From contig JADIMR010000049.1 in NCBI GenBank assembly GCA_017694565.1, positions 1-47,322 on the forward strand: a stretch of DNA of 47,322 nt. Direction: 5' to 3'. Under the pieces are notes generated by a model. It did not search any database. It was not told where the DNA came from and saw only the letters and a list, made by a program, of their open reading frames with translations. Of this stretch, positions 27,134 through 47,322 are shown one piece after another. Position numbers and translations under genes: made by a program. The stretch's first letter is position 1. Each line of letters opens with the position of its first letter. Source of the stretch: Candidatus Enterocola intestinipullorum (lineage in GTDB: Bacteria > Bacteroidota > Bacteroidia > Bacteroidales > Paludibacteraceae).

Positions 27134-27180
27134 TCTTATGACCCCCGGAATAGGCGAAGCCTATTCCACCCCTTAGGGGT
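27134..27180 (+). repeat. Modular variable-hairpin repeat, copy A1a (divergent)
   Basis: TCTTATGACCCCC-[GGAATAGGC gaa GCCTATTCC]-ACCCCttaGGGGT. Confidence 0.65.
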
Positions 27181-27224
27181 GGCCTTTGGCCGGTCGATTT
27201 GGCAAGCCAAATCTTTTATTAATC

Positions 27225-27285
27225 GTCTTATCCCCCATAAAAATCGCTGTGCGATTTTTATTGCCCCCAAAGGGGACGGCCTTCC
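27225..27285 (+). repeat. Modular variable-hairpin repeat, copy A1b
   Basis: GTCTTATCCCCC-[ATAAAAATCGC tgt GCGATTTTTAT]-TGCCCCCaaaGGGGACGGCCTTCC. Confidence 0.85.
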
Positions 27286-27314
27286 ATGAACGTAATGCAA
27301 TTTTTAAGAGGTGC

Positions 27315-27346
27315 TACTATCCACTAACCACTGTCCACTAATCCAC
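27315..27346 (+). repeat. Heptamer array (CCACTAA)n-type
   Basis: CTATCCACTAACCACTGTCCACTAATCCAC; overlaps the stop codon of the adjacent GH16 gene. Confidence 0.8.
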
Positions 27347-28873
27347 AAACACTTTAACCGCATTGCCATCCACAAGAACAATATAAATGCCTTGCAAATT
27401 GCCGTTGTCCGTAGTAACGTCCTGGCCGATAAGGTTCAACACGCGGAAAGGCTCGTCGCAGTATATGCGGCCGCCGTGCGCGGAGACGGTCAAAAGGTCG
27501 TCCACGGTTTCGTACACAGCCGAACCGCCGCAAGAAGTTGCCACGAGTTCCACGTTGCTAAGGGTGAATGTGCAGTTGGCAGGATTGTTGTCCGCAGCTA
27601 TCACCACGCATGGGTTGTACATTGCTTGCCCGTTCATTGCCTTTACGGAAAATTCATTCGCCACGTTTGCCTGCAAGTCCAGAGTATTGTCCAAAAACAA
27701 TTGCTGCGTATTGTTCGAAGCGGCTTCGATATACACGCGGGCTGTGCAACTCTGCGAAGCCGTAAGATTGCCCGAAAGCATGTAATCGGTATTTGCCGCG
27801 AGCGGGCTGCCGTTGCCTTGCGCCACCACGTACATGTTTGTAAAACTTTCAGGGACATTTGCAGTAACAGTCGTTCCGCTGTAACTTATCCAGCTCTTAT
27901 CATCATGCCACCAACCGTTGGAATTGAGCGAATTGCGTATGTCCGTGTAGCTATCGAACGGATTCGCACACACGTCTATTGACGGATCGGGTTCGGGAAC
28001 GTCCCCTCCGTCGGGATATGTCACTGTCGATTCGGGGTATGCGTCCCTGTCTTGATAAACGCGCACGTAGTCCACTATCATTTGAGCCTCGGTAAATGCA
28101 GGGTCTATCTGATAGTTCACATACGAACCGCCCATGGCGATGTTCAGGATGAAGTACGCCGGATATTTGAAAGCATACAAGCCGCTGCCACGGTCGTTGA
28201 ACTCGGCAATCGACATATTGCATATATCCATGCGGTTGGTACCGTTTTCGTCATCGGCAACATAACCCACCAAGTAATCTGGAGTCCACTCCACGCCGTA
28301 AATACGGAATTTCGTACCAGGTTCTTCACTCAATGTTATGTTCTTTCCGTAATTGACATTCGAATAACTACCGTCCATGCCTTGGTTGTTCCAATGGTAA
28401 GTGTTCACTATCCTGCGCCATGACGCTTCCTCGCCGGTACACATGTATTCCATTATGTCGATTTCACCGCAATACGGCCAACCGGCAGCACCTGTTCCGA
28501 GCATCCAGTAAGCAGGCCATACTCCCATTTGTCCCTTCGGCAATTTTATACGGGCTTCCAACTTGCCATAGCGGGCAGTAACCTTGTTAGCTGTTGTTAT
28601 ACGGGCGGAAGTATATTCCGAGCCGCTGTAATTCTCCTTTTTGGCATGTATTACCAAATTCCCGTCCTCTATACGGACATTTTCGCTGCGGTTCGTGTAA
28701 TATTGGCTTTCACCGTTGCCCCAGCCCCAATTGCCCGTTCCGATTTCGTAGTTCCAAACATCCGTGTCGAGCGCAGATCCGTCGAACTCGTCGCTCCACA
28801 CCAATTCGTATGCCGCATTGGCCTGCAAAACAGCCAAAAGCAATGCAGCGATAGTAGCGGTAATCTTTTTCAT
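27338..28873 (-). CDS. GH16 family glycoside hydrolase with C-terminal CBM-like region and possible T9SS sorting domain
   Basis: GH16 catalytic motif GEIDIMEYM, signal peptide MKKITATIAALLLAVLQANA, C-terminal FRVLNLIGQDVTTDNGNLQGIYIVLVDGNAVKVFVD resembling T9SS type A tails. Confidence 0.88.
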   Translation of the reverse strand: MKKITATIAALLLAVLQANAAYELVWSDEFDGSALDTDVWNYEIGTGNWGWGNGESQYYTNRSENVRIEDGNLVIHAKKENYSGSEYTSARITTANKVTARYGKLEARIKLPKGQMGVWPAYWMLGTGAAGWPYCGEIDIMEYMCTGEEASWRRIVNTYHWNNQGMDGSYSNVNYGKNITLSEEPGTKFRIYGVEWTPDYLVGYVADDENGTNRMDICNMSIAEFNDRGSGLYAFKYPAYFILNIAMGGSYVNYQIDPAFTEAQMIVDYVRVYQDRDAYPESTVTYPDGGDVPEPDPSIDVCANPFDSYTDIRNSLNSNGWWHDDKSWISYSGTTVTANVPESFTNMYVVAQGNGSPLAANTDYMLSGNLTASQSCTARVYIEAASNNTQQLFLDNTLDLQANVANEFSVKAMNGQAMYNPCVVIAADNNPANCTFTLSNVELVATSCGGSAVYETVDDLLTVSAHGGRIYCDEPFRVLNLIGQDVTTDNGNLQGIYIVLVDGNAVKVFVD

Positions 28874-28920
28874 AATTATATCATATCGCATTAAAATCTA
28901 TTATGACAATTATTATAATA

Positions 28921-28970
28921 TCCACTGCCGCGAAGCGGCCAACTAACCACTAACCTGCTTCGCAGGCTAT
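28921..28970 (+). repeat. Heptamer array interrupted by GCCGC/GCGGC hairpin
   Basis: TCCACT-GCCGCgaaGCGGC-CAACTAACCACTAA-CCTGCttcGCAGG. Confidence 0.75.
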
Positions 28971-28980
28971 ATATTTCCTT

Positions 28981-29034
28981 GTCTTATCCCCCGTGAAAAT
29001 TGCTAATGCAATTTTCACAGCCCCCAGAGGGGGC
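28981..29034 (+). repeat. Modular variable-hairpin repeat, copy A2
   Basis: GTCTTATCCCCCG-[TGAAAATTGC taat GCAATTTTCA]-CAGCCCCCAGAGGGGGC. Confidence 0.9.
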
Positions 29035-29073
29035 ATGGGCATTTCCGCTTCGCTACAATGTCCATGCCCATGT

Positions 29074-29136
29074 CATTGTCTCATCCCCCGGATTTAGCCT
29101 TTGGCTAAATCCTGCCCCCAGAGGGGGCGACCTTCC
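29074..29136 (+). repeat. Modular variable-hairpin repeat, copy A3
   Basis: CATTGTCTCATCCCCC-[GGATTTAGCC ttt GGCTAAATCC]-TGCCCCCAGAGGGGGCGACCTTCC. Confidence 0.9.
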
Positions 29137-29189
29137 TTGAACCCTGTGCTTTCACTACCGGGAGCTTTCTGTAGCATCGTGCCATCATT

Positions 29190-29397
29190 AGTAGGGACGT
29201 GGCGTGCCGCGTCTCTACTGACACCTCTTTCACTATAACTGTAAGTGCGCCGATGCCCTTTGTCCATCGGCTTAACTTACAGTTAAGCATTAATGAACCT
29301 GCATTTTACCAATGCAGGTTCTCAGACTTGTGAAACCTGCGCCTTGTGTGCAGGTTTCTTTATGCTTAACCGCGAATTGAGCGAAGCGCATTCGCGG
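29190..29397. repeat. Dense nested hairpin array in the GH3-GH16 intergenic region
   Basis: AGTAGGGACGTGGC/GCCGCGTCTCTACT; TAACTGTAAGT/ACTTACAGTTA enclosing GCCGATG/CATCGGC; AACCTGCATT/AATGCAGGTT; GAAACCTGC/GCAGGTTTC; GTTAAGCAT/ATGCTTAAC; CCGCGAAT/ATTCGCGG. Confidence 0.85.
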
Positions 29398-29422
29398 TGG
29401 TGGTCCTGCGGTGCCAACTGCA

Positions 29423-29447
29423 ACTATCCACTAACCACTAACCACTA
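29423..29447 (+). repeat. Heptamer array beginning at the GH3 stop codon
   Basis: CTATCCACTAACCACTAACCACTA; minus strand TAG-TGGTTAGTGGTTAGTGGATAG. Confidence 0.8.
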
Positions 29448-31685
29448 CTCACCAAGGTAAAAACCTTTGCCTGCGCCGACCGCGCTGTTCGGTGCGACCC
29501 ACACGGTGAAATCGCCGGGTTCTGCCACCATCCGCATGTCGGCATTGCAGAATTCAAGCATGTCGGGGGAAATGGTAAACGTAACAGTCGTATCTTCTCC
29601 GGCTTTTATGTCCACCAATTGGAAATCTTTCAACTCCTTTACGGGACGCACCAACGAACCGAAATGGTCGCGGGTGTACAGTTGCACGATTTCAGTACCG
29701 TCGTAATCACCGGTATTCTTGATGTCGCATGTAACCGTGATTTGACCGTCCATCGTAAGGGTGTCCGACGACAACACGGGGTCTGAATATTCAAACGTGG
29801 CGTAGGACAAGCCGTAACCGAATGGCAGCAACGGCGATATGCCGGCATCCAACCAATATGTACAGAAGCCCATCGAAGTTTGTTTCGCTTCCAAGGGAAT
29901 TTCGTCTATCATGGTCGGGCGGTAATCGGCGGGACGGCCGGTGCGGTAGTCGTTATAGTAAATTGGCACTTGGCCGACCATGCTCGGGAACGTAACCGGC
30001 AACTTTCCTTGCGGCACCGTCCGTGCCGACAGAATGTCGGCGATGGCAGGTCCTGCCATCGTCCCGCCGTGCATCGCTATCAGCATGGCATCGGATTTCG
30101 ACAATTCCACCGGCAGGGTATTGGGACGGCCGGACATCACTATGGTTACGACGGGCTTGCCTGTCGCTTCCACCGCCTCCAACAAAGCCGTCTGCGCACC
30201 GGGCAACGATATGTCGGCGCGGCATTTCGCCTCGCCCGACAAAATAGCCTCCTCTCCCAAGAAGAGCAACACTATGTCGGATTGCCTTGCAGCTGCAACC
30301 GCTTTTGCAAAACCCTCCTTGCTGTTGTCGCGGCTGTACTTCGTGCCGGGGGCGTAAATTATCTTGTCGCCGTATTCTTCGCGCAGCGCGGCCAGCGGTG
30401 TTACGCTATGCTCTTTCTCCGCGTCGAAGCACCACGTACCCATTTGGTCGTATGCCGCATCTGCCATCGGGCCTATTACCGCAATCTTGCGTACATCGGG
30501 CTTAATCGGCAGTGTCTTGTCTACATTTTTCACCAAAACCACGCTCTTGGCGGCAGCTTCCCTTGCCATTTGCAAGTGGGCGGGATTATATAAAACCGTA
30601 TCGCGCCCGCTCATGTCGGTATAAGGATTGTCGAACAGCCGCAACTGGTATTTGAGGGTCAGCACACGGCGGCAAGCCTCGTCAATCACGGCTTCGCTGA
30701 CTTCGCCTGCTGCCACGAGCGAATCCAAATAGGCATAATAGCCTCCGCCCATCATGTCCATGTCCACACCTGCATTGATACCGTCGGCAGCGGCTTGCGC
30801 CTTGCTGTCGGAATATCCTTGTACCCAAAGCTGGTCTATCGAGAAATAATCGCTTATTACCATGCCGGGATAATTCCATTCGCCGCGCAACACGTCGCGC
30901 AAGAGGAATTTGCTGCCCGAAACAGGCACACCGTTAAGCTCGTTGAAACCTGCCATGAACGTTGCCACGCCCGCATCGGCGACCGCCTTGAACGGTGGCA
31001 GCACCCAATCCCGCAAACGCTCCTCGGAAACGAACACCGAATTATAATCGCGTCCGCTCTCGACCAAGCCGTAAGCAGCGAAATGTTTGGCACATGCGGC
31101 CACGCGGTCGGCATCAGCCATGTCGTCGCCCTGGAAGCCCTGCACCATTGCCACTCCCAAACGCGAAGTGAGCAGCGCATCCTCTCCGAGGCTCTCCGCT
31201 ATCCTGCCCCAACGCGGTTCGTGGGTAACGTCGATCATCGGGGCGAAAGTGTATTTTATGCCCGAAACGGCCGCTTCGGCCGCAGCTACCTGCGCGCCGG
31301 CCTTCACAACGGACGTATCCCAAGAGCAGGCTTGAGCAAGAGGAATCGGGAAAATGGTTTTATAACCGTGCACCACGTCGCGGGCGATAAGCAACGGTAT
31401 TCCCAAACGGCTTTCTTCCACGGCTATGCGCTGCACCTCGTTTACCCGTTCAGGGGCGCAATTAAGCAGCGAACCTACTCCGCCCTGACGGATGAGTTCA
31501 GGCACGTCTTCCGCTCCCCAGCCGAAATCGCGCTGGTTGAGCTGGCCGATTTTCTCCTGCAATGTCATCAGGGACATCAACGAATCTACTTTTTGGGCAA
31601 TGCTTTTATCGCCACCGGCGTTGTTGCCGCACGATGAAAACGTCAGCGCGACCGCAACGGATAATATTATAAAATGTTTTTTCAT
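29445..31685 (-). CDS. GH3 family beta-glucosidase lipoprotein
   Basis: Lipobox FSSCGNN; GH3 N-domain LIARDVVHGYKTIFPIPLAQACSWD, VISDYFSIDQL, C-domain AVIGPMAD, LPVTFPSMVGQVPIYYNDYRTGRP, FnIII-like C-terminus. Confidence 0.94.
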   Translation of the reverse strand: MKKHFIILSVAVALTFSSCGNNAGGDKSIAQKVDSLMSLMTLQEKIGQLNQRDFGWGAEDVPELIRQGGVGSLLNCAPERVNEVQRIAVEESRLGIPLLIARDVVHGYKTIFPIPLAQACSWDTSVVKAGAQVAAAEAAVSGIKYTFAPMIDVTHEPRWGRIAESLGEDALLTSRLGVAMVQGFQGDDMADADRVAACAKHFAAYGLVESGRDYNSVFVSEERLRDWVLPPFKAVADAGVATFMAGFNELNGVPVSGSKFLLRDVLRGEWNYPGMVISDYFSIDQLWVQGYSDSKAQAAADGINAGVDMDMMGGGYYAYLDSLVAAGEVSEAVIDEACRRVLTLKYQLRLFDNPYTDMSGRDTVLYNPAHLQMAREAAAKSVVLVKNVDKTLPIKPDVRKIAVIGPMADAAYDQMGTWCFDAEKEHSVTPLAALREEYGDKIIYAPGTKYSRDNSKEGFAKAVAAARQSDIVLLFLGEEAILSGEAKCRADISLPGAQTALLEAVEATGKPVVTIVMSGRPNTLPVELSKSDAMLIAMHGGTMAGPAIADILSARTVPQGKLPVTFPSMVGQVPIYYNDYRTGRPADYRPTMIDEIPLEAKQTSMGFCTYWLDAGISPLLPFGYGLSYATFEYSDPVLSSDTLTMDGQITVTCDIKNTGDYDGTEIVQLYTRDHFGSLVRPVKELKDFQLVDIKAGEDTTVTFTISPDMLEFCNADMRMVAEPGDFTVWVAPNSAVGAGKGFYLGE

Positions 31686-31701
31686 AATTTCGGTAATCTA
31701 T

Positions 31702-31744
31702 AACCACTAACCACTGCCGCAAAGCGGCCAACTAACCACTGACC
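31702..31744 (+). repeat. Heptamer array interrupted by GCCGC/GCGGC hairpin
   Basis: TAACCACTAACCACT-GCCGCaaaGCGGC-CAACTAACCACTGACC. Confidence 0.75.
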
Positions 31745-31770
31745 GAATTACAGTTTCACTGTGATTCGGT
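31742..31770 (-). other. Gene-end hairpin embedding the phosphorylase stop codon
   Basis: ACCGAATTACAGT-ttc-ACTGTGATTCGGT: 13-bp arms, one mismatch; stop TAA (31748-31750) lies in the stem. Confidence 0.75.
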
Positions 31771-34700
31771 TAACAAAGCCGTCGCGGGCGAAAATGTGCG
31801 CGGAAGTTTCCGCATCCAACTGCAAGCCCTGCATGTCGCGGCTGCTGCCGTCGGCAAAGTCCAATCCTACTGTACCCTGCCCGTCCTGCTTGTAAACCAC
31901 GGGGCAATGGCACAGTGTAAAGCGCAATTCCTTGGTTTCCGAATCGAAATCCTTGTCTTTCAGCATCAGGCTGTTGAAAGAAATCTTCCCGTCCTCGACT
32001 TTCACTCCGAGCTCGAAGAAACGGTTTATGATGTCTTCCTTTACCTGTCCCGTCATGCCGGGCTGCTGGACTCCCGCCATCGACGGGGTATGCGAATAGG
32101 CATCAAAAGGAAACGCTCCGTAAACATCGGGGGTCTTGTGCGCACCGATACCGTCGCGTATGTCGTAATAAGCAGCCTTCAAGGCTTCCACGGTTTCCGC
32201 ATCCGCACCGTCTTCCACTGCTTTTTGCACATTCTCGCCTACGGCAAGCAACAATTTTGAAACCATGTGCCAGTAAATGCAGCCCAAACCCTCGTATTTG
32301 TAGAATGTACCGCTTCGTCCGGTAAACGCCCTGTGGTTGAAAACCTTTTCGTACAAGTCGAGCAACTGGCGGCGTTCCTCGGTCGAAGGCACGACAGGTA
32401 GTTTGTCCAAAGCTTCCGACAGCAGGCGGGCGTTGCGAAAATCGGCATTGAAGTGCATTCCTCCTTTTTCGTCGGTCATGATTATTCCTTTCACGGCCGA
32501 GAATTTCCTTACTACCGGCAAATCCTTGTCAGCGGATGAAATATTGTTTTTTTCGGAGAACAGCGGCAACTTCTTGTTAGGATAAAGTATGTAACTGTTC
32601 TGGTCGGCACGGTAAAGCGAACTTGCCCTCAGGCTCTTCAACAAATCGAGGACTTCTGCCGGCGTAAGTTGCAATGCCGACAGCACCGCTACCTGTCCTT
32701 CCAACATTTCATAAAGGCGGGTAATCCTTATGCCGCCATCGTAATATTCTATCAGATTATAAGCATGGTACATGCCGTCCTCGCGTTTGTTCTTGGCGAT
32801 GGACTCGTCCAAGTATACCAGTACGGCACTGAAAAATTCCACGAGCGAAGATTTCGATATGCCTTGCTTTGCTCCGGTAAACCCTGCATAAACCTCGTTG
32901 CGGTATTCCTCGGCAGCCTTGCCCATCGCATCCGCGAAACTGCGGCGCGAAGCATCGTCGAACTCCATTTTGGCAAACGGCATGAAATTCCTCAGCGTAG
33001 CCGACACCTTGGCAAAGTAAGCGGCCATCTCGCCGGAAAGTTCGAACTCGTTGTCGTCGGCAGTTTCAAATATGTTTTTCATGAATGCCGCATACCTGCG
33101 CATATAGTACAATGTAACCATTGAAGCTCCGTAACCGACAAGTGCGTTGTTCGCATCGTTCCATTCGGGACGCAGGGTGTTCATCCAAATTCCTGCTTCG
33201 GGAATGAAGTCCGTAAGTTTCGCAAGGTAGCTTACAAGGATTTTTTCCGTGAAAGTCGCTAACAAGACCTCTCCGTCCTTGTCCAATACAAGACGTGCGT
33301 CCTGCCCGTATGAAGGCAACATTTCGAAAATCCTCTTGTGCAGGTTGTCGTCGAAATACACCGAGTTTTTCGGGTCGGCGACTATTTCTGAGTATTTCTT
33401 GAATTTATACGGCACGTTGGCGTATGCGAACACGGCCTCGTTGAAATATTGCTTCAAGCTTCCGGGATAATATTTCTGGGCCAATTCCATCAGTTTCAAC
33501 AGGTATATTATCTGATGGTCGCCCCAATAACCGATATTCGACCACGGATTTTCGGGTTCGATAACCTCCCAGTCAATGCCTTCGCTGGTTACCTTGTAGG
33601 GATTGTAACCGTCCACAGTCGTCGCATTGAGGAATTTCGCTATTATGCCGCACAAATATTGCGGGTAGGACAACGACAGGGCTTCCCAATTCTGGAATAT
33701 GTCGCGCCAGTTGCCTTGATAAGAAATTATGCGTTTGCCGTTTTCGTCGTTTACCTTTATGTCGAACAAGTTCCACGGGCGCGACGGATCGCCATGCCTG
33801 CGGCTGAATGTCAGTGGCAGGTACTCGTAATACAAACGCAAAAGCTGTTTGTCCCCGGTGGCCTTTACCTTTTCGCCCAAATCCCCGTAATCGATGTCGG
33901 CCGGGAGCGCGTCGAGGAATGCCGCTTGACGCTCCGCGAGTTTTTTGTTGAATACGGATATGTGTTTTTTGAACTTGTCCGTGGAGATATTGTAATTGTC
34001 GCAATAGAAACCACCGCGCATGGTATTGAACATGCAATTGGCAAAATGGCGTGCCATGTCGGCCTCGTCGCCTGTCTGCTGCAAGCCGTCCACTTCCCCT
34101 ACAATTTCCACTATCTCTTTCGTACCTGCGGCGATTTCGGACTCCAAGTCGGCGGCAATGTCCTTGCCCGACATTATATAGTCTTTCAACTTGCACAGCT
34201 TCACGGCATCGAATGCCACGTCGGCGACAAAATACCATGTTTTGGAACCGCCCGCACCGAGGGAGAAACTCTTATGTACGAACATAGCACCGCGCACGCC
34301 TTTCGATTCCGTTTCGGGAACAACGTCGCCGCCCTTGCGGAACTTGTCTATCTGGGTCGAACTCAAAAGGTAGTCGGCGGCAGGCATACCCGCGCACCAC
34401 ACCACATTGCAACGCAGGGACTCGCTCGGCTCTGCAACGTCGGCAAGTATCGATTCCATGCGGAACAAGGCGAGCGGCAACCCTGCAACCATTTCCGTTT
34501 TCTTGTAAGCGTCCACAAGACACGAAAGCCTTGCCTGCGTGATTTGTTCAACGCCGTCGGGCAACAGGTTTTGCAAACCGTCGAGAATTTCGACCTCGGC
34601 TTGCGCGCTCGAAATGTTTTGCAACGTGCTGCGTTTTATGAAACCGGAACGAGCGGCATTGCAATAGCAATACGAAAAGCTCAAACCCAAGCTGCGGTTC

Positions 34701-35107
34701 TCTTCGGTAAATATTATCTTGTTGCCGACAGTGCTTTTCGCAATGGAGCGTTTCACGTCGTATGCGCCGCACTGACGGTCGGAAAACGGCTCCCAAAGAT
34801 AAACGTCTCCGTCCTTCCTTACCCTCACGATTGTCTTGCTGCCCGTGGTTTCGTAAGCCTCGGTTATCTTGTCGTCGGTGTAATAAGGGAACAATGCCTT
34901 GTTGGGATTTTGCCTGCCGGCCGTTATGCCGCCGCTCGACGACAGATATGTCCAAATGTCGCAGTTGGACGACAAACTGATAAAGAACGGCAACATTTTG
35001 TCGTAGTTGTCGATTTTGTAAAACTTTTCGCCGTTTATATCAATAAAAGAGCCCTTAACATCTTCCGTATTGAAGTTCAATGCTGTTTTTCCTGAAAACA
35101 AAGTCAT
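31748..35107 (-). CDS. GH94/GH149/GH161-like glycoside phosphorylase (candidate beta-1,3-oligoglucan phosphorylase)
   Basis: 1119 aa without signal peptide; SSSGGITAGRQNPNKALFPYYTDDKI, ISYQGNWRDIFQNWEAL, RPEWNDANNALVGYG; context with GH16/GH3. Confidence 0.75.
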   Translation of the reverse strand: MTLFSGKTALNFNTEDVKGSFIDINGEKFYKIDNYDKMLPFFISLSSNCDIWTYLSSSGGITAGRQNPNKALFPYYTDDKITEAYETTGSKTIVRVRKDGDVYLWEPFSDRQCGAYDVKRSIAKSTVGNKIIFTEENRSLGLSFSYCYCNAARSGFIKRSTLQNISSAQAEVEILDGLQNLLPDGVEQITQARLSCLVDAYKKTEMVAGLPLALFRMESILADVAEPSESLRCNVVWCAGMPAADYLLSSTQIDKFRKGGDVVPETESKGVRGAMFVHKSFSLGAGGSKTWYFVADVAFDAVKLCKLKDYIMSGKDIAADLESEIAAGTKEIVEIVGEVDGLQQTGDEADMARHFANCMFNTMRGGFYCDNYNISTDKFKKHISVFNKKLAERQAAFLDALPADIDYGDLGEKVKATGDKQLLRLYYEYLPLTFSRRHGDPSRPWNLFDIKVNDENGKRIISYQGNWRDIFQNWEALSLSYPQYLCGIIAKFLNATTVDGYNPYKVTSEGIDWEVIEPENPWSNIGYWGDHQIIYLLKLMELAQKYYPGSLKQYFNEAVFAYANVPYKFKKYSEIVADPKNSVYFDDNLHKRIFEMLPSYGQDARLVLDKDGEVLLATFTEKILVSYLAKLTDFIPEAGIWMNTLRPEWNDANNALVGYGASMVTLYYMRRYAAFMKNIFETADDNEFELSGEMAAYFAKVSATLRNFMPFAKMEFDDASRRSFADAMGKAAEEYRNEVYAGFTGAKQGISKSSLVEFFSAVLVYLDESIAKNKREDGMYHAYNLIEYYDGGIRITRLYEMLEGQVAVLSALQLTPAEVLDLLKSLRASSLYRADQNSYILYPNKKLPLFSEKNNISSADKDLPVVRKFSAVKGIIMTDEKGGMHFNADFRNARLLSEALDKLPVVPSTEERRQLLDLYEKVFNHRAFTGRSGTFYKYEGLGCIYWHMVSKLLLAVGENVQKAVEDGADAETVEALKAAYYDIRDGIGAHKTPDVYGAFPFDAYSHTPSMAGVQQPGMTGQVKEDIINRFFELGVKVEDGKISFNSLMLKDKDFDSETKELRFTLCHCPVVYKQDGQGTVGLDFADGSSRDMQGLQLDAETSAHIFARDGFVNRITVKL

Positions 35108-35138
35108 ATTCTTGATTTTTTAATTATTACGATCGTTT

Positions 35139-38028: not shown

Positions 38029-38030
38029 AT

Positions 38031-38063
38031 AGAAGTGATTGGCGCTACACGCAAATCACTTCT
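38031..38063 (-). other. Gene-end hairpin embedding a GH16 stop codon
   Basis: AGAAGTGATT-ggcgctacacgca-AATCACTTCT; stop codon at 38056-38058 lies in the stem. Confidence 0.8.
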
Positions 38064-39024: not shown

Positions 39025-39037
39025 AGTATATTGATTT
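38946..39037 (-). repeat. Duplicated leader cassette, copy 1
   Basis: 92 bp nearly identical (2 differences) to 40178-40269; covers upstream region, start and signal peptide. Confidence 0.9.
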
Positions 39038-39065
39038 TTTAGTTTCTTTCTAACCACTAACCACT

Positions 39066-39091
39066 GCGGCAACGCCGCCACTATCCACTAC
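39066..39091 (+). repeat. Heptamer units interrupted by GCGGC/GCCGC hairpin
   Basis: ...AACCACTAACCACT-GCGGCaacGCCGC-CACTATCCACTA. Confidence 0.7.
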
Positions 39092-39142
39092 GGATGTATG
39101 AATTGGAATAATCGCTCTGCGATTATTCCAATTCATACATCC
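39092..39142 (-). other. 24-bp perfect gene-end hairpin copying the last codons and stop of a GH16 gene
   Basis: GGATGTATGAATTGGAATAATCGC-tct-GCGATTATTCCAATTCATACATCC; the right arm contains stop 39123-39125 and the codons for RMYELE. Confidence 0.92.
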
Positions 39143-40256
39143 TCACCCAATCCACTTTCATTTGGACGGGGAATATGCTGTCATCGATAGGTTCCGCCCC
39201 ACCGAATTGCCCGCCAATCGCCATGTTCAAAATCACATAGAAATCCTGGTCGAAGGGCCAATCCTGCCATGTGCTGTTGAACCATGTAGTTTGTGACCAA
39301 CGGCCTACCTCCTCTCCATCGAAGGTGAACAAAAGCAAGTCGTTGCCGTTCTGGTAATCGTCTATCCACTCAATGCCATAAGTATGGAAATGGTCGGCCA
39401 CGTTGTCGTATGTCTTGGTTTGGTTCCACGCGCTGCCTTGCGAACCTACGTTACCGTTGCGATTGTTGGTATGCGCTGCCACTGAAACCCGGTTGGGTAT
39501 GCTGCCCACGTGTTCCACAATGTCCACCTCGCCGCTGCGCGGCCAACCGCCGTAAACGCTTTCGTTGGGCATCAGCCAGAATGCGCACCATGTACCCGCC
39601 CCCGAAGGGAAACTGATACTTGCCTCTATCTTTCCGTATTTGATAAATGCTTTTCCCGAAGTATTGATACGCCCCGAAGTATACTCATATTCGTTTACAT
39701 GACCTGTCGCAGTCGGGCGTTCCCAATGCTCTTTCTTTCCGGTTATTACGAGATAACCGTTCTCGACGCTTACATTCTGTTGCAGGTAACATTGTTTTTC
39801 TTGATTACGGCCTCCGCCTTCTTCATAGTTCCAATAAGCGGTATTGAGTTCCGTTCCGTCGAAATTGTCTTCCCATACCAATTTGTAATTGCGTTCAGGC
39901 TCGTTTACAGTTACCATGCAATACTCTTCCACTCCATCGACTTTCGCCCATGCGAATGTTCTGCCGTATGCAAGAGCCGTAACCTTGCCTGTCGCGTCTA
40001 TTGAAGCAACCCTCTCGTTGTCCACGCTCCATGCCACTCGCGACATGTCGGCATTTGCAGGAGCAAAGGACGTTACGGACAACTGCAACGATTCTCCCAC
40101 ATCCAAAGTCGCAGCAGTTTCGTTGAGTTCGAGTGCGGTTATGGTTACAACGGGCGGAGTCGGTTCGCCTCCGTCGTCGCCTTTTTGTTCGCAGGCCGCA
40201 AACATCAATGCCACAGCCGCCGCAGCCGCCATATAAAAGAATTTGCTGAGTTTCAT
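39123..40256 (-). CDS. GH16 family lipoprotein with Big_2-like domain
   Basis: Leader MKLSKFFYMAAAAAVALMFAACEQKG; Big_2-like DVGESLQLSVTSFAPANADMSRVAWSVDNERVASIDATGKVTALAYG; GH16 GEVDIVEHVGS. Confidence 0.92.
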   Translation of the reverse strand: MKLSKFFYMAAAAAVALMFAACEQKGDDGGEPTPPVVTITALELNETAATLDVGESLQLSVTSFAPANADMSRVAWSVDNERVASIDATGKVTALAYGRTFAWAKVDGVEEYCMVTVNEPERNYKLVWEDNFDGTELNTAYWNYEEGGGRNQEKQCYLQQNVSVENGYLVITGKKEHWERPTATGHVNEYEYTSGRINTSGKAFIKYGKIEASISFPSGAGTWCAFWLMPNESVYGGWPRSGEVDIVEHVGSIPNRVSVAAHTNNRNGNVGSQGSAWNQTKTYDNVADHFHTYGIEWIDDYQNGNDLLLFTFDGEEVGRWSQTTWFNSTWQDWPFDQDFYVILNMAIGGQFGGAEPIDDSIFPVQMKVDWVRMYELE

Positions 40257-40269
40257 AGTATATTGATTT
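40178..40269 (-). repeat. Duplicated leader cassette, copy 2
   Basis: See 38946-39037. Confidence 0.9.
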
Positions 40270-40295
40270 CTTGTTATCGTTTTTTTCTCGTTTGT

Positions 40296-40459
40296 GGGAT
40301 TTATTCGACCTGCGGTGTTCACTTCGTTCTGCGGGATTTGTAATCCCGCAGGATAATGTCTTGGCGATTTGTAATCGCTTTCTAAATTACGTAAGTCGCG
40401 AACCACATTAGTTTATGGAGATTACACGAGTTGATGAGACCGTAGGTCGAATAAATCCC
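40296..40459. mobile_element. MITE/REP-like element with 21-bp terminal inverted repeats
   Basis: GGGATTTATTCGACCTGCGGT (40296-40316) and inverted ACCGTAGGTCGAATAAATCCC (40439-40459), one mismatch; internal hairpins CTGCGGGATT-tgt-AATCCCGCAG and GCGATT-tgt-AATCGC. Confidence 0.65.
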
Positions 40460-40481
40460 GAACAACGCCAAGTACTACCCA

Positions 40482-40572
40482 CTATCCACTAATCACTATC
40501 CACTGCCGCGAAGCGGCAAACTATCCACCGCGATGCTTCCATCGCTAACTATCCGCTAAACACTACCCACTG
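40482..40572 (+). repeat. Heptamer array with embedded hairpins
   Basis: ACCCACTATCCACTAATCACTATCCACT-GCCGCgaaGCGGC-AAACTATCCACC-GCGATGcttcCATCGC-TAACTATCCGCTAAACACTACCCACT. Confidence 0.75.
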
Positions 40573-40662
40573 ACACCCGCAACCTGATACCTCATTGGTA
40601 ATCAGCGTTTTAAATTTTTAATTTTCAATTATGCATTAGCGAAGCCCGTCTCCGCCATTAGT

Positions 40663-40692
40663 GGTATATGGAGCGGTCAGGCTCCATATACC
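40663..40692. repeat. 12-bp perfect hairpin
   Basis: GGTATATGGAGC-ggtcag-GCTCCATATACC. Confidence 0.85.
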
Positions 40693-40796
40693 CGGACTTT
40701 TAGTTTCATAGCGGGGGAAGCTGTAATCCGGTATTGCCGCCACAAACTTCCCCCCTTGTATCTAACTTCTGCTAAACTCGCAGGTATCTCTTATTA

Positions 40797-41777
40797 TTAC
40801 TCTGCGGGCACATAGAAGAACACTGCGTCTACATCAACGCGGTTGCCGGCACCGTTTGCGGTGTATGTCCAAGCATACCATGCTTCGGCTGTGATGTCCT
40901 GGCTGAAATCCAAGCCCATCGAAACCAAATCAGCATACGAGAAAGTGAACACTTCCCAGTCGCCGTCTTTGTATTCGCCTGTGGAATCGGTAATCTCAAG
41001 CAAAGTTACAGTGTCGCCGCCGCCAAGGGGTGTCATGCCGATTTGCAACGATGTCGCAGGAGTGTATTGACCTTTCAAGATTATTACGAACTCGTGTTCG
41101 GCTGTAAGGTTCTTCAACTTGGGAAGTTCGGTATCAGTTGCCGACGCGATGCCCAAACCGCCGCAGATGTTGCCCCAGCAGCCTGCGGGTGTGGGGGAAG
41201 CGGCTGCAATCGAGAACCAGCCTTCTGCCTTGCCGAACGAGTTGACACCGGTTTGCGGAGCATCCGCAACTTCGGCAGCGGGATTCCAAACATAGTTCAC
41301 GCGGGTGGCATCTTCGGGAACGAGTGTTTCTCCCTCGAATGCACCGTTGCTGCGGAGGTCGGCAGTAATTTTGCCTGCGTTGCTCAGTTCATCGAAAGAC
41401 GACTGGTCGATTTGGAAAATGTAGTAGTCGCTACCGTTGAGCAAACCGCCGGTCTGTGAACCTGCGATTACTTGGATTGAGCATGTTTGGGTTTGTCCGT
41501 TATATTCGCAAGTGATGGTTGCATTGCCCTCGGCAACACCTGTTACGACACCCGCAGCAACAGTTGCGACAGCTTCATTATCAGTTGCCCACGTAGCCTG
41601 CGAAGTAACATCCACATCACCGCTTGTCGCGTTGATGGTAACTGTTTGTCCGGCTTCCACTACTGCGGAAGAGCGGCTCAATGAGAGATTGCCATCACCC
41701 TCTGCGCCATTGTTGCAACTTGCAAGAGCCAAGCCCATTACAGCTGCCAATGATAAAATCAAACTTCTTACTTTCAT
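40797..41777 (-). CDS. Surface lipoprotein with Big_2-like domain (candidate surface glycan-binding protein)
   Basis: Lipobox LALASCNN; SSAVVEAGQTVTINATSGDVDVTSQATWATDNEAVATVAAGVVTGVAEGNATITCEYNG; located directly after SusD. Confidence 0.75.
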   Translation of the reverse strand: MKVRSLILSLAAVMGLALASCNNGAEGDGNLSLSRSSAVVEAGQTVTINATSGDVDVTSQATWATDNEAVATVAAGVVTGVAEGNATITCEYNGQTQTCSIQVIAGSQTGGLLNGSDYYIFQIDQSSFDELSNAGKITADLRSNGAFEGETLVPEDATRVNYVWNPAAEVADAPQTGVNSFGKAEGWFSIAAASPTPAGCWGNICGGLGIASATDTELPKLKNLTAEHEFVIILKGQYTPATSLQIGMTPLGGGDTVTLLEITDSTGEYKDGDWEVFTFSYADLVSMGLDFSQDITAEAWYAWTYTANGAGNRVDVDAVFFYVPAE

Positions 41778-41851
41778 AGTTCAAAAATTTAAATGGTTAA
41801 TTGGTAAAATTTTTATTTGTCTTTAATTTGTGGACAGCAGAAAGCAAAACC

Positions 41852-41882
41852 AACCACTGTCCACTAATCACTAAACACTGAT
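41852..41882 (+). repeat. Heptamer array following the SusD stop codon
   Basis: ACCACTGTCCACTAATCACTAAACACTGA; minus strand TAA-TCAGTGTTTAGTGATTAGTGGACAGTGG. Confidence 0.7.
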
Positions 41883-43552
41883 TAATACCCCGGGTTCTGT
41901 TCCATCGGGTTCAGCATACGTTCTTCTTCCGGTATGGGGAAGAGTTCGTGCTTGCCTGCCACGAAGTCGGCCATTTCATCACGCGCCTCTTGGCTTTCGG
42001 TCGCAGCGTATGCGTCCATGTGGGCTTTCACTCCTTGGCCGTCAAATCCTCCCCAACGGCAAATGTCGAACCAGCGGTGGCCTTCCATTGCCAATTCCAC
42101 ACGGCGTTCGTGGCGTATTGCCTGTTCCCATGTGGGTTCAGCTATTTCTTGGCCGTTCACTTTTATCGAATAGCCGGGGTAATCGGGCAAGGCATCGGGA
42201 TCTGCCGCATTTGCCCTTGCGCGCTGGCGCACTTCGTTCAATGCCTGTATTGCCGTCTTGCCGCATTTCCCGGCACCGCCCGCTCCTACGCAAGCCTCGG
42301 CATACATCAACAGCACGTCGGCATAACGTATCAACTTGTAGTTGAGAGGTCCGCGGCTGGCGTGTGCCAAAGTATTCGCGCCTGTAACATTACCGTCGGC
42401 ATCCGTGGTATACCATGCGTATTTGCGGCTGCAATACGGGGTTCCGCAATAAATTTCTTCCGATTCGTTGGTCATGTGGCCTGTCGCATCCCAAATGGTA
42501 ACATCGCGGCGGGGGTCGCCCTCTTCGTATTCGTCATACAAGTTGTGCGTGGGCTTGTTGAATCCCCAACCTGCATTGCTGCCGAACATGGGGTCTTGCG
42601 AACGGGAACGGGTAAGTATCTGCGTGAACGTGCCGCGGCTGAAACCGTTGCCTTCGCCGTAGTCCGAACTCGGGTCTTCCATGTACTGTATTTCGAATAC
42701 GGATTCCACGCCGTTCTCGTTCTCGAGCAACCAGTTGTCGGCATAGTCCGTCTCCAAGGAATATTCATTCGACAGGATAATGGAGTCGCCCCATGCGCGG
42801 GCTTCTTCATATTGGTGGCGATAGAGGTTCGCCTTCAAGAGCATTGCCTGCGCCGCGCCTTTTGTTGCACGACCCATGTCGGTATCGGCAAAACGGCTGT
42901 CGCTGCGGAGCCACAAACGCTTGTTGGCTTCCGTCAAATCAGCAACAATCTGGTCGTAAACGGCATCCGCTGTCGCTCTCGGCTGTTGCCAATCGGCATC
43001 CGTAAGCAAATTGTTCAATACCAAAGGCACTCCGCCGTACACCCTCACCAATTGGAAGTAATAGAAGGCACGGAGGAAATATGCTTCGCCTATGATGCGT
43101 TCCTGCAAACCGTCCACGCATTGGTACTTCTCTTCGTCGAACAATTCAAGATCCATGCCGGGAACCCTTTCCAACACCAAGTTGCAACGCTGTATGCCCT
43201 GATATTTGGCACGATAGTATTGCAAGAGCAATTCGTTGTCGGTCTGGGTTTTCCAGTTTTCCATATCGTAAACATCGGCCATGTCGCTCTGTATGTACTG
43301 ACCGCCTTTGAGAGCGTCATCGGACACTATGTCGCCGATGAACCACTCAGCGTAATATGTACCTTGATACTCCCACGCCAAAGGGGTGTATGCGGCATTG
43401 ACGTTTTCCAATGCAGCTTGCCAAGTGGTATAGTAGTCGGCAAGGTTCGTCTGGCCCGGTGTCGGTTCTTTCAACCAGTCGGAGCAAGAACCCAAGCCCA
43501 ATACCACCAATGATGTAATCGCTGCTTTTACAAATATTCTAATCTTTTTCAT
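41882..43552 (-). CDS. SusD/RagB family nutrient-binding lipoprotein
   Basis: Lipobox LGLGSCSDWL; EAYFLRAFYYFQLVRVYGGVPLVL; RYADVLLMYAEA; RRVELAMEGHRWFDICRWG. Confidence 0.96.
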   Translation of the reverse strand: MKKIRIFVKAAITSLVVLGLGSCSDWLKEPTPGQTNLADYYTTWQAALENVNAAYTPLAWEYQGTYYAEWFIGDIVSDDALKGGQYIQSDMADVYDMENWKTQTDNELLLQYYRAKYQGIQRCNLVLERVPGMDLELFDEEKYQCVDGLQERIIGEAYFLRAFYYFQLVRVYGGVPLVLNNLLTDADWQQPRATADAVYDQIVADLTEANKRLWLRSDSRFADTDMGRATKGAAQAMLLKANLYRHQYEEARAWGDSIILSNEYSLETDYADNWLLENENGVESVFEIQYMEDPSSDYGEGNGFSRGTFTQILTRSRSQDPMFGSNAGWGFNKPTHNLYDEYEEGDPRRDVTIWDATGHMTNESEEIYCGTPYCSRKYAWYTTDADGNVTGANTLAHASRGPLNYKLIRYADVLLMYAEACVGAGGAGKCGKTAIQALNEVRQRARANAADPDALPDYPGYSIKVNGQEIAEPTWEQAIRHERRVELAMEGHRWFDICRWGGFDGQGVKAHMDAYAATESQEARDEMADFVAGKHELFPIPEEERMLNPMEQNPGY

Positions 43553-43577
43553 ACTGCTCTGATTTTAATTGCGGTTA

Positions 43578-46500
43578 TCAGAAATCGAGATTTACACCGA
43601 AGGTGAACGAACGGGCCTGCGGATAGTTACCGAAGTCCACACCGTAGTTGCTGACCTCGGGGTCATAACCGGTATAGTTGGTTATGGTAAACAAGTTGTT
43701 TGCAGACACATAGAAACGCACCCTGTTGAAATGAGCCTTGCGTGTAAGCTCGCGCGGCAAAGTGTAACCCAATTGCAGGGTTTTCAAACGCAGGTAGCTG
43801 CCGTCTTCCACGAAGCGGCTCGATACCGCGAAGTTCTGCGAGTGGTTGGGATCGGGAATCGAACCGTCGCCGTTGGCGACACCGTCGTTCCATGCGTTCG
43901 CCATAACGGGGCTCAACTGGTTGGTGGCACCGGTAGATTCGGTACGCTCGCGCAAGGCGTTGTAGATTTCATTGCCGTAAACGCCTTGGAAGAACATCTG
44001 GAAGTCGATGCCTTTCCATTCCAAGCTGAAATTCAAACCGTAAGTCAACCACGGGAAGTTATTGCCTATGCCGGTGCGGTCGTTGTCGTCGATTTTGCCG
44101 TCGCCGTTAAGGTCTTCGTACTTGGCATCGCCGGCACCGTAACCCGAAGTATCGTTGGGCAAATATTCCTTGGCTTCCTCGTCGCTCTGGTAAACGCCAA
44201 GGTAATTGTAGCCCCAGTATTCGAATACGGGCATACCCACGTCGCAACGCCAGTATGTCGAAATTACGGGAGAACCTCCGTTAAGCGCGGTAAGTTCGTT
44301 TTGCACGAAAGACACATTGGCATCGATCGAGTATCTGAAATCGCCCACCATGTTCGAGTGGCCGAGAGAAATGTCTATACCCTGGTTGCGCATCGTACCC
44401 ACGTTGCCCATGAGGTAGTAGCGGTTGCCCACATGCGCGGGAGTGGTGATGTTCAGCAACATGTCGCGGGTGTCGCGGATATATCCGTCGACGGTAGCCG
44501 TCAACATTCCGCCCCACATGCTCAAATCCACACCCACGTTCCATTGTTCCGTGGTTTCCCATTTTCCGTTTTCGTTAACGTAAGTAAGGATGGTGGCACC
44601 CTGGCCGTTGAGATAATCCTGGTTTACACCGAACACGTAATCCACGAAAGTAGGACCTGCGGTGAACATGTTCATAGTGAAGTTGTCCTGGTCAATCGAC
44701 TGGTTACCCAACTGTCCCCAGCCGGCACGGATCTTCAACATGTCGAGGATGTCGCTGTGGTCTTTCAACCAGCTTTCCTCGCTCATGCGCCATGCCAAAG
44801 AAACTGATGGGAAGTAGCCCCAAGGATTCTGGGGGAACTTGGAAGAACCGTCCGCACGGAAGTTCACGGTAACCAAATAGCGGTTGTCGTAGCCGTAGAA
44901 CAAACGTCCGAAGAAAGATACCATGCGTTGGCGGTCTACCGTATCCGAAGAATACGATTTGTCCTCGGTGGTATTCGACAGGTACCAGTTGCTCTCGACA
45001 GGATTGAGGATGACTGCACCCGAACCGCCCATCGAATAATAGTCGTACTGTTCGGTAGATTGGCCCACCATTATGTTCATATTGTGCTTGCCGAAATCGC
45101 GGGCGTAGGTGATGGTGTTGTCCACCGTCCAACGCATCTGGCGGTACATGCTGCTCGACAAGAAATTCTTCTCAGCGTAATCGTAAGACGAATACTCGTA
45201 TTTGTTTCTGAATGATTTGTCGCGCACGTAGTACATGTCCATGCCGACAGAAGAATGCAAGGTAAGGCCTTCCACCGGAGTGATGTCCAAATATACATTG
45301 CCCACCCAGCGTTCAGCATTGTTTTCGGGGAAGCTTTCTTCCACCATCGTGAACGGGTTTGTTACGTTCTTGAAGTTGGACGAAGCCGCTATCTGGCCGC
45401 TCAAATCATCACCCACGTTATTGACTGCCCCGTCGGGGTAATGGGTGGGATCCCAAGGAGCCATAGCCAAAGCCGCGGACAAGATTGAAGAACCCGGGCT
45501 GGCGTTGTTCACGGTGGCGTTGCGGCCGCCGCTGTTCGAATACGAAAGGTTTTCGCCCACTTTCAACCATTTGCGTACTTTATAAGATGTGTTGGCACGT
45601 ATGGTGAAGCGGTGGTAATCGGATCCCATGATGGTACCTTCCTGCGAGAAGTAGCTACCGCTTATGGCATAGCTGAACTTGTCGTCCGCACCGTCGATCG
45701 ATACCGAGTAGTTTTGTATGGGGGCGTAGTTGTTGAACACCTCTTCCTGCCAATCGGTCTCCTGCTGCGAATAATCAAAAGATTCGGCTGTAGGGTAATA
45801 GGTGGAAGTTCCCAAGCGATAACCGTGCAACCACGTATTGAAATCCTGGTCCAAAGCCGCCTGTTCGCGGAGAGTTCCGGTAAAGCCGACCATAGTGCGC
45901 GCATAATCCTCGGCACCCATCAAATCGAGTTTTTTCCAAGCGTTCTGGAAACCTGCGTAAGCGTTCACCGAAATATTCGCCATGCTTTCCGTAGAGCCGG
46001 TCTTGGTCGTGATAAGCACCACGCCGTTAGCCGCACGCGAACCGTAAATCGCAGAAGAAGATGCATCCTTCAAGATTTCGGTGCTGGCAATGTCGTTAGG
46101 CGAAAGGAAGCTGATGTCTTCGACAATTATACCGTCCACAACATAAATAGGAGCGGAGCTGCCGTTCACTGATCCGATACCGCGGATGCGGATTTCGGCA
46201 GCCGCACCCGGCTGTCCCGAAGAAGAATTGACAGTTACACCGGCGGCACGTCCCTGCAAAGCCTGGTCCACGCTTGCGGCGGGAGTCTTTTGCAGCTGGT
46301 CGCCCTTCACCGAAGAAATAGCACCGGTAACGTCGCTCTTGCGCATCGTACCGTAACCCACGGCCACAAACTCTTCCAATTGCTCGGTTTCGACCGCCAG
46401 GGTTACATTGACAGTACCGGAGGTCGGCGTAATCGTTTGCGACTCGTAACCTAAATAAGAAAACGTGAGGCTTTGCCCGTCAGGTACTTCGAGCGTGTAA

Positions 46501-46667
46501 TTACCGTCGATGTCGGTAATCGTACCCGTTGTTGTCCCGGTAACGACAATGTTCACGCCCGGCTCACCCATTCCGGTGTCGTCGAGCATGACGTTACCAC
46601 TGACTTGCCTTGCGGACACCGTCGCACAGGCGACGGATAAAGCCAAAAAGAGCAAGAATTTTTTCAT
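43578..46667 (-). CDS. SusC/RagA family TonB-dependent receptor
   Basis: Carboxypeptidase-like N-domain (GVNIVVTGTTTGTITDIDGNYTLEV), plug VDQALQGRAAGVTV...IRIRGIGSVNGSSAPIYVVDG, C-terminal ARSFTFGVNLDF. Confidence 0.97.
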   Translation of the reverse strand: MKKFLLFLALSVACATVSARQVSGNVMLDDTGMGEPGVNIVVTGTTTGTITDIDGNYTLEVPDGQSLTFSYLGYESQTITPTSGTVNVTLAVETEQLEEFVAVGYGTMRKSDVTGAISSVKGDQLQKTPAASVDQALQGRAAGVTVNSSSGQPGAAAEIRIRGIGSVNGSSAPIYVVDGIIVEDISFLSPNDIASTEILKDASSSAIYGSRAANGVVLITTKTGSTESMANISVNAYAGFQNAWKKLDLMGAEDYARTMVGFTGTLREQAALDQDFNTWLHGYRLGTSTYYPTAESFDYSQQETDWQEEVFNNYAPIQNYSVSIDGADDKFSYAISGSYFSQEGTIMGSDYHRFTIRANTSYKVRKWLKVGENLSYSNSGGRNATVNNASPGSSILSAALAMAPWDPTHYPDGAVNNVGDDLSGQIAASSNFKNVTNPFTMVEESFPENNAERWVGNVYLDITPVEGLTLHSSVGMDMYYVRDKSFRNKYEYSSYDYAEKNFLSSSMYRQMRWTVDNTITYARDFGKHNMNIMVGQSTEQYDYYSMGGSGAVILNPVESNWYLSNTTEDKSYSSDTVDRQRMVSFFGRLFYGYDNRYLVTVNFRADGSSKFPQNPWGYFPSVSLAWRMSEESWLKDHSDILDMLKIRAGWGQLGNQSIDQDNFTMNMFTAGPTFVDYVFGVNQDYLNGQGATILTYVNENGKWETTEQWNVGVDLSMWGGMLTATVDGYIRDTRDMLLNITTPAHVGNRYYLMGNVGTMRNQGIDISLGHSNMVGDFRYSIDANVSFVQNELTALNGGSPVISTYWRCDVGMPVFEYWGYNYLGVYQSDEEAKEYLPNDTSGYGAGDAKYEDLNGDGKIDDNDRTGIGNNFPWLTYGLNFSLEWKGIDFQMFFQGVYGNEIYNALRERTESTGATNQLSPVMANAWNDGVANGDGSIPDPNHSQNFAVSSRFVEDGSYLRLKTLQLGYTLPRELTRKAHFNRVRFYVSANNLFTITNYTGYDPEVSNYGVDFGNYPQARSFTFGVNLDF

Positions 46668-46785
46668 AGTTAAACGTATACAATAAATGAATAAACCGCT
46701 ATATTTCGCTCGTGATTCGATTCAAGGCTCAAAACCGCAAACGTTGCACAATTAAAACCTTTTACTCCGCAAACGTTCACGAATG

Positions 46786-46815
46786 CAAAGATAATAGTTA
46801 TTTTTGGCGAGCAAA
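46786..46815 (-). promoter_or_regulatory. Predicted SusC/PUL promoter
   Basis: Minus strand TTTG-N18-TATCTTTG about 120 bp upstream of the susC start. Confidence 0.5.
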
Positions 46816-47088
46816 ATATTTTATCATTATATATGATTACATCAAACTAAGGAAAACACCTCATCATTCACCAATCAAAAGGCTCCTATTTAATTTATAA
46901 TCTGATATTTATAAATGCCAAATAACTCAAATACAAATTTCATTATGATTTTTTCCAAATGTTAAAATCGTACCGCAATCCTGTTTTTATGCGGTATGCA
47001 AACGTTTTAAAAACGATTTTTCACACTTGTTATTCCATCGAACACCTGCAAAAACCGCTACTTTTTTAACTCACCGTTATTCTTAGTG

Positions 47089-47182
47089 GATGGTGGATAG
47101 TGGTGGCCGAGGCCGCAGTGGATAGTTAGCCGCTTCGCGGCAGGACATCCACCGTGGATGCGCTTCGCTCTATCCACGGTTA
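47089..47182 (+). repeat. Heptamer-like array (TTAGTGG orientation) with embedded hairpins
   Basis: TTAGTGGATGGTGGATAGTGG..., GCCGCttcGCGGC, CATCCACcGTGGATG, CCGTGGAT/ATCCACGG. Confidence 0.65.
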
Positions 47183-47230
47183 AGCTGCCGGACTTACAGT
47201 GGGTATAGTGCAAGCACTACGTTCAGGGAA

Positions 47231-47292
47231 GACCGCCCCCTCTGGGGGCAGTAAAATCATCTTTGATGATTTTACGGGGGATAAGACAATGG
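47231..47292 (-). repeat. Modular variable-hairpin repeat, copy A5 (inverted)
   Basis: GACCGCCCCCTCTGGGGGCAG-[TAAAATCATC ttt GATGATTTTA]-CGGGGGATAAGACAATGG. Confidence 0.9.
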
Positions 47293-47295
47293 CAA

Positions 47296-47322
47296 GCGTT
47301 AGCCTGCAAAGCAGGCTAACGC
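47296..47322. repeat. 12-bp perfect hairpin at window end
   Basis: GCGTTAGCCTGC-aaa-GCAGGCTAACGC; sits at the upstream variable-hairpin position of copy A5. Confidence 0.85.

Follow-up and report, generated by a model that had tools for sequence, protein, structure and literature searches.

The window analysed here, a 47,322-nt stretch of a contig from Candidatus Enterocola intestinipullorum, contains six copies of a short intergenic element, hereafter the cassette, in which a hairpin of variable sequence (HP2) stands beside a constant one. We interpret the cassette as a lineage-specific intergenic double-hairpin DNA element in which template switching probably maintains the match between arms and whole hairpins are exchanged between copies; taken as a whole, this interpretation has, in our judgement, about an even chance of being right. 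The unit itself, its spread, the independent assortment of its parts, a wobble-free covariation and the flipping of loops were all observed directly. The host genome is a 1.81-Mb metagenome-assembled genome (MAG) of 119 contigs, 83.65% complete; below, L-numbers denote loci and C-numbers contigs of that assembly.

The cassette is a unit of about 57 bp

The layout of the cassette is CATTGTCTTATCCCCC - HP2 - N - GCCCCCAGAGGGGGC: a 16-nt constant leader (CATTGTCTTATCCCCC), HP2 with a stem of mostly 10–13 bp and a 3-nt loop, one linker base, and the constant hairpin GCCCCC-ANA-GGGGGC. Pairs of copies that carry the same HP2 are 0.96–0.99 identical to 15 nt on either side of it, and beyond that point identity falls to near the level of unrelated pairs. 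This sharp fall defines the travelling unit as the ~57 bp from leader to constant hairpin. The constant blocks are mostly 83–96% alike even where the HP2s differ, and in 911 kb every HP2 detected lay within a cassette.

Two parts that the preliminary description of the window had assigned to all six copies are less uniform. The constant hairpin is present as exact GCCCCCAGAGGGGGC in 4/6, and the tail GRCCTTCC-TGAAC in 3/6; genome-wide, this tail is an adjoining module that lies outside the unit and does not travel with HP2.

The cassette family is private to one species

A covariance-model search, which the preliminary description had proposed, was run with a model (R1) made from 18 distinct copies. 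It returned 136 matches in the host MAG at E<=0.01, corresponding to about 130 copies. An exact cassette pattern recovered 79–81 copies in the same genome, and the control pattern read backward gave 0 matches against 81 for the true one. No cassette was detected in 40 relatives, in 15 congeners searched by blastn, in 357 other genomes of the same family searched with exact patterns, or among phages or plasmids, and the covariance model found no convincing copy in 146 other genomes of the order, where the single marginal match had E 0.006. Within a collection of species genomes, the sole exact match outside the species was in a Deltaproteobacterium MAG, adjoining an IS200 tnpA; that MAG holds one such structure in its whole genome, and the likeness may be a coincidence. 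The cassette family is thus a high-copy, lineage-specific family private to one species.

No described family was matched. The Rfam matches above gathering score in the window were two tRNAs, with no family covering the cassettes; the constant blocks had no text match in the literature searched; and neither a GTAG nor a CGTC tag of the repetitive extragenic palindrome (REP) type was present. Non-complementary cores, sequence-conserved cores and a match to a described family, each of which the preliminary description had named as counting against it, were all looked for, and none was found.

HP2 arms covary without wobble pairs

The arms of a given HP2 pair at 97%, compared with 16% when arms are exchanged between copies. 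The statement that both arms always match perfectly is true for 6/6 copies in the window; across the genome, 41/63 distinct HP2s have perfect stems and 22/63 carry mismatches. Covariation was quantified on 18 distinct copies with 11-bp stems (198 cells). All 11/11 pairs change on both sides, and 57 two-sided changes were counted against a shuffled mean of 14.1; the covariation score, the number of paired cells and the number of two-sided changes each exceeded all 500 shuffles and all slid versions of the alignment. The constant C5 hairpin shows no covariation.

No G.U pair occurs in the 198 cells, an outcome with a chance of 4e-5 if G.U frequency were 5%. The 27 mismatches across the 63 distinct HP2s comprise 3 G.T, 6 A.C and 18 others, with no wobble preference. 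Because a selected RNA should pass through G.U intermediates, this absence counts against selection on RNA structure, one of the explanations first offered for the maintained pairing, which we now regard as disfavoured. For comparison, G.T pairs are often present in GTAG REPs, where they have been interpreted as a sign of transcription (PMC3733652).

The companion claim, that pairing is kept while sequence is not, holds in its first half, pairing being well above chance. Its second half was too strong: subfamilies of HP2 share common inner base pairs (AATCGC, TCATC, ATTGC, AGCC, ATCC), and some stems recur 3–10 times. The stems in the window appeared to share no sequence because the sample was small.

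HP2 loops are of DNA type and are sometimes inverted

Hairpins near the elements have 3-nt loops in 103/135 cases, closed by C..G in 93 and by G..C in 1, whereas hairpins in coding DNA have such loops in 82/348, closed by C..G in 21 and by G..C in 12. Among distinct HP2 triloops, 21/38 are GNA or its complement TNC, against 1/8 expected (p 4e-10). C(GNA)G loops form unusually stable DNA mini-hairpins.

Several HP2s share a stem and differ by reverse-complemented loops. Identical stems were found with GAAGAAAATTGC (GTA/TAC), (GC)AAAATCATCT (GGA/TCC) and GTGAAATGCC (AAA/TTT), and the near-identical stems GCAAAAATCGC/GCAAACATCGC bear GCA/TGC. Such inversions account for 4/23 unequal loop pairs, compared with 0.36 expected, and one more AAA/TTT flip lies at C116:40430. 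Template switching between short inverted-repeat arms is known to homogenise the arms and also to invert the spacer (PMC8604942, PMC8794818). The rewriting of one arm from the other at the DNA level, proposed at the outset, is therefore supported by the loop inversions together with the lack of G.U pairs, though it is unproven.

Hairpins and flanks assort independently

Between copies, no correlation links HP2 with either flank or the two flanks with each other (Mantel r 0.03, 0.06 and -0.01, all non-significant). Where right flanks are at least 95% identical, 12/14 such pairs bear unrelated HP2s, which strongly supports the earlier suggestion that hairpins are swapped.

Rearranged and divergent forms also occur. 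At L025 (C28), one member of a tandem pair has HP2 and the other does not (AATCCCCCCAAAGGGGGC vs AATCCCCC-HP2-GCCCCCAAAGGGGGC); the HP2-less twin is best explained by loss of the sequence between the C5 runs on either side. One copy each on C77 and C28 has the leader joined directly to the tail. L106:2045 (C68) has a third sequence of the same layout, CCTTTTACCCCCC-hairpin-GGCCCCGGTGGGGC, which suggests that further divergent subfamilies exist.

Proposed mechanism and alternative explanations

Under the template-switching and exchange interpretation, single-stranded DNA, most probably that of replication forks, would fold into hairpins, as the loop type and the lack of wobble pairs suggest. 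Polymerase template switching inside a hairpin could then copy one arm into the other and sometimes invert the loop, so that a change in one arm would be either erased or copied across, giving seemingly compensatory changes without RNA selection. The cassette with its HP2 would further move, or be exchanged, as a block between sites otherwise little alike; candidate agents are a Y1-type transposase that works on single strands in trans, ectopic template switching, and recombination over short tracts at the constant blocks. The cassette itself would be a repeat that is either neutral or selfish. Three parts of this scheme are our inference: that the DNA is single-stranded, that replication is involved, and what carries out the exchange.

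Several points weigh against this interpretation. The species is represented here by a single genome, so no event has been witnessed. Template switching within a hairpin cannot by itself account for the replacement of a whole HP2 between flanks that are 97–99% identical; some further process of exchange must be assumed. Loop inversions are few, and related copies cannot be counted as independent for their loops. Other intergenic hairpins of the host genome also commonly have C..G-closed triloops, with a weaker preference, so these are not family-specific. Orientation relative to the G-rich (leading) strand, assigned by GC skew, was 41:16 over copies in a first contig set; with clusters counted once and more contigs the bias was weak (40 vs 24, p 0.06), and we therefore do not claim a replication-strand bias, fork dependence being unproven. 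Finally, an HP2-less twin was found for only one (L025) of about 130 copies.

A tentative alternative, to which we assign a clear minority of the probability, is a hairpin-swapping system in which the constant blocks are sockets for perfect hairpins, which during replication would either be synthesised afresh by fold-back or be taken over from other copies. If this were so, hairpins would diversify faster than their frame, as a by-product of fork stalling or through a single-strand enzyme that requires a shape and is indifferent to sequence.

Equally tentative is the reading that the cassette is a REP-like element moved in trans by a Y1 (HUH) single-strand transposase, either REP-associated or of the IS200/IS605 kind, that would read the hairpin shape and the constant blocks and leave the HP2 sequence free. 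The sharp unit boundaries, the hairpins, the intergenic sites, the lack of target duplication and the weak strand bias all fit such an agent. The host assembly has one Y1 transposase gene (C29:23485-23829, IS200-type by NCBIfam), and a degenerate cassette copy lies ~1.4 kb from it; at the observed cassette density, however, chance alone would place a copy within 1.4 kb about one time in five. No cassette lies within 1 kb of the gene in this 84%-complete MAG, its surroundings look different, and no adjoining hairpin matches the cassette, although a multicopy insertion sequence may be absent from the assembly. The C29 protein also scores far under the REP-transposase cut-off (22.7 vs 80 bits). 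Beyond the species, the only look-alike in the species-genome collection abuts an IS200 tnpA, and another IS200 bears a CCCC-ATA-GGGG hairpin downstream of its tnpA; against this, the Deltaproteobacterium structure is single in its genome and may be coincidental, and the congener G009 carries a Y1 gene without the cassette family.

A REP transposase as the driver was rejected, the only candidate in the 84%-complete assembly being this one IS200-type gene without flanking cassettes. At L077:1304-1946 (C29), the 3' end of the dusA-like gene next door recurs as an inverted ~22-bp copy (TGCTTTACATGCGGTTACGCAT) flanking this transposase gene, possibly a fold-back duplication. A reverse transcriptase (PF00078) had no match in the 84%-complete assembly, and on that basis a retroelement origin (group II intron or retron) was set aside. 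A DDE-type miniature inverted-repeat transposable element was likewise rejected, as there is no target-site duplication and the cassette ends are not mutual inverted repeats.

An old repeat family undergoing ordinary divergence, its modules shuffled by homologous recombination between copies, appears improbable. Related stem subfamilies and the mismatches in 22/63 distinct HP2s fit it, but the constant blocks remain mostly 83–96% alike while HP2 changes at all 11 pairs with arms still 97% paired, and ordinary divergence would neither alter both arms together nor flip loops.

More doubtful still is a structured RNA family (a small RNA, a 3'-end stabiliser or a terminator-like element) whose stem is held by compensatory mutation. 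It could draw on the strong HP2 covariation beside an invariant second hairpin and on a predicted stable two-hairpin fold. It conflicts with the 0/198 G.U cells and with mismatches that show no wobble preference, unlike GTAG REPs (PMC3733652). Moreover, gene orientation around the copies is inconsistent, with some copies between divergent genes; the family is absent from all congeners and has no Rfam match; and the loops are of the DNA triloop type.

Very unlikely, finally, is that HP2 is a micro-mobile hairpin inserting into a CCCCC...GGGGG palindrome and duplicating CCCCC as its target site: C5 blocks do directly border HP2 and L025 offers a twin without it, but about 130 occupied sites stand against one empty one, deletion between C5 direct repeats explains the twin equally well, HP2 never occurs outside the cassette, and HP2 linkage spans both 15-nt blocks rather than ending at C5.

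Copies in the window

All six copies reported in the preliminary description are present, at or within a few bases of the coordinates it gave; as to their forming one family, five are full members and the first is a divergent cousin. This divergent copy (27134–27180, plus strand; subfamily B) reads CTTATGACCCCC - GGAATAGGC/GAA/GCCTATTCC - ACCCCTTAGGGGT and falls below the R1 threshold. It has the family layout in the form TTATGACCCCC - hairpin - ACCCCTTAGGGGT, which recurs at L101, L123 and L126. Directly to its left, a hairpin scan located its left hairpin (HP1), a 55-nt near-perfect hairpin (AAATTTATTTTCTTTAATTGC...GCAATTAAAGAAAATAAATTT; 27075–27129, no strand assigned). Very long, near-perfect, AT-rich hairpins with stems of 21–26 bp and short loops stand directly left of cassettes here and at L007, L101 and L111.

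The first full cassette (27221–27277, plus strand; covariance model E 6.9e-19) has HP2 ATAAAAATCGC/TGT/GCGATTTTTAT at 27237–27261. It is followed by a tandem pair on the same strand. In the left member (28977–29034; E 9.8e-19), HP2 is GTGAAAATTGC/TAAT/GCAATTTTCAC at 28993–29018 and recurs in five other copies, most with different flanks. A linker hairpin (GGGGGCATGGGCATT...AATGTCCATGCCCATGT; 29029–29073, plus strand) joins it to the right member and also connects tandem pairs on C1, C43, C50, C64, C77 and C98. The right member (29074–29128), also matched by the covariance model, carries the commonest HP2 (10 copies), GGATTTAGCC/TTT/GGCTAAATCC at 29090–29112, and its predicted single-stranded DNA fold consists of two adjacent hairpins (z -5.2). 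The tail repeat GACCTTCCTTGAAC follows at 29129–29142 (plus strand), a module independent of HP2 by comparison of flank identities.

Two cassettes lie on the minus strand. One (37968–38027; E 6.9e-17) has HP2 GGAAATTCTT/CTTTAATT/AAGAATTTCC and, from the survey of hairpins left of copies, HP1 AGAAGTGATTTGCG/TGTAG/CGCCAATCACTTCT at 38031–38064 on the same strand. The other (47235–47291; E 4.7e-21) has HP2 GTAAAATCATC/AAA/GATGATTTTAC; its HP1 (GCGTTAGCCTGC/TTT/GCAGGCTAACGC on the minus strand; 47296–47322) is cut at the contig end and recurs at C71 with loop AAA. Two of the stems first listed for the six copies were one pair short, the correct ones being GTGAAAATTGC and GTAAAATCATC.

Degenerate 7-mer tracts (CACTAAC / CCACTAT) stand beside cassettes at 27318–27350 and in many other spacers, and are among the commonest 12-mers of the loci examined. 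The interval 27338–46667 is probably a polysaccharide utilisation locus: the genes clustered there encode glycanase-like proteins, a SusC-like protein and a BglX-like beta-glucosidase.

Genomic setting of the family

All 80 strictly defined copies are intergenic save a couple that overlap short, doubtful open reading frames. Neighbouring genes are arranged 18/7/10/7, with no consistent orientation and with some copies between divergent genes, and no direct repeats of at least 4 bases were found at the cassette edges. A perfect or near-perfect left hairpin ends within 15 nt of the leader in 66% of the 80 copies, compared with 3.5% of nearby controls. The linker of a tandem pair also forms a hairpin, and the end of the preceding cassette is often part of its left arm (GGGC...GCCC). 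Targeting of terminators or gene 3' ends, which the left hairpins had suggested, was ruled out by the neighbour orientation.

At L071 / L134 (C9), a cassette and other repeats occupy the 243-bp spacer that separates ackA from pta; these genes are 0–8 bp apart or overlapping in most congeners, and the spacers of two others measure about 120 and 210 bp. A second dispersed repeat of ~75 bp (TGAGTTTCTCCAAATTCGG...CACGAATTTTC) has inserted, after a T run, into the 3' arms of HP2s of at least four different kinds (L007:1801+, L110:4994-, L114:1845-, L119:1753-). At L026 and L121 (C32 and C97), cassettes lie inside a tandem array with a ~176-bp period that contains tRNA-3'-end-like sequence (ACTCGAACCCGCG...) and terminators; ARAGORN called one tRNA-Asp in L121 and none in C32.

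Implications

Covariation is usually taken as proof of a functional RNA. In the cassette, very strong covariation without G.U pairs goes together with loops of DNA type, some of them flipped, and with hairpins that can be interchanged; the cassette is therefore a natural example of a covariation signal that may arise from DNA copying alone. Caution is warranted, since covariance searches can list such DNA repeats as RNAs. The ~130 copies combine one frame with dozens of hairpin versions, so that a comparison of strains would allow the rates of arm rewriting, loop flipping and hairpin exchange to be estimated.

Comparison with known systems

REPs and bacterial interspersed mosaic elements (BIMEs) are short intergenic palindromes in more than 100 copies, single or in tandem; some are restricted to a species, and their subfamilies differ in stem residues that stay complementary (PMC3733652, PMC6006769, PMC2817692). 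The cassette shares each of these traits, and it is an intergenic palindrome of the 20–40 bp, many-copy kind by which REPs are recognised. It differs in lacking a GTAG/GTGG or CGTC tag 0–2 nt from the hairpin foot: in the leader CATTGTCTTATCCCCC, TTGTC ends 9 nt from HP2. Nor was a REP-associated tyrosine transposase flanked by cassettes found in the 84%-complete MAG. The cassette further differs in joining a variable to an invariant hairpin, in having no G.U pairs and in the reassortment of HP2 and flanks.

With the right ends of IS200/IS605 elements the cassette shares hairpins of a kind read in single-stranded DNA and the lack of target duplication, and in L072 an IS200 tnpA has a similar TTTTATCCCCC...GCCCCCAAAGGGGGC stretch next to it; cassettes differ in having no transposase gene inside or adjoining. 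Quasipalindrome template-switch mutation produces arm homogenisation and spacer inversion, both of which are seen in the cassette, but it is a mutation process of single loci (PMC8604942, PMC8794818), whereas in the present case its substrate would be a repeat family that is dispersed and has fixed flanks.

The double-hairpin elements of fungal mitochondria (Paquin et al. 2000, cited in PMC2800124) and the repetitive hairpin elements of sponge mitochondria (PMC2800124), as portrayed in the latter account, likewise consist of two adjacent hairpins, are intergenic and dispersed, and are inferred to be mobile; the likeness, fairly drawn in the preliminary description for the fungal elements, is one of layout, not of descent, and no sequence homology is to be expected. 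For the Allomyces elements, the same account gives no target duplication as reported (Paquin et al. 2000, cited in PMC2800124). Compared with the mitochondrial elements so described, the cassette resides on a bacterial chromosome and has a constant leader, an invariant C5 hairpin and independently assorting hairpins. The cassette is REP-like in habit and resembles the mitochondrial double-hairpin elements in layout, but lacks the REP tag and the flanked transposase that define REPs.

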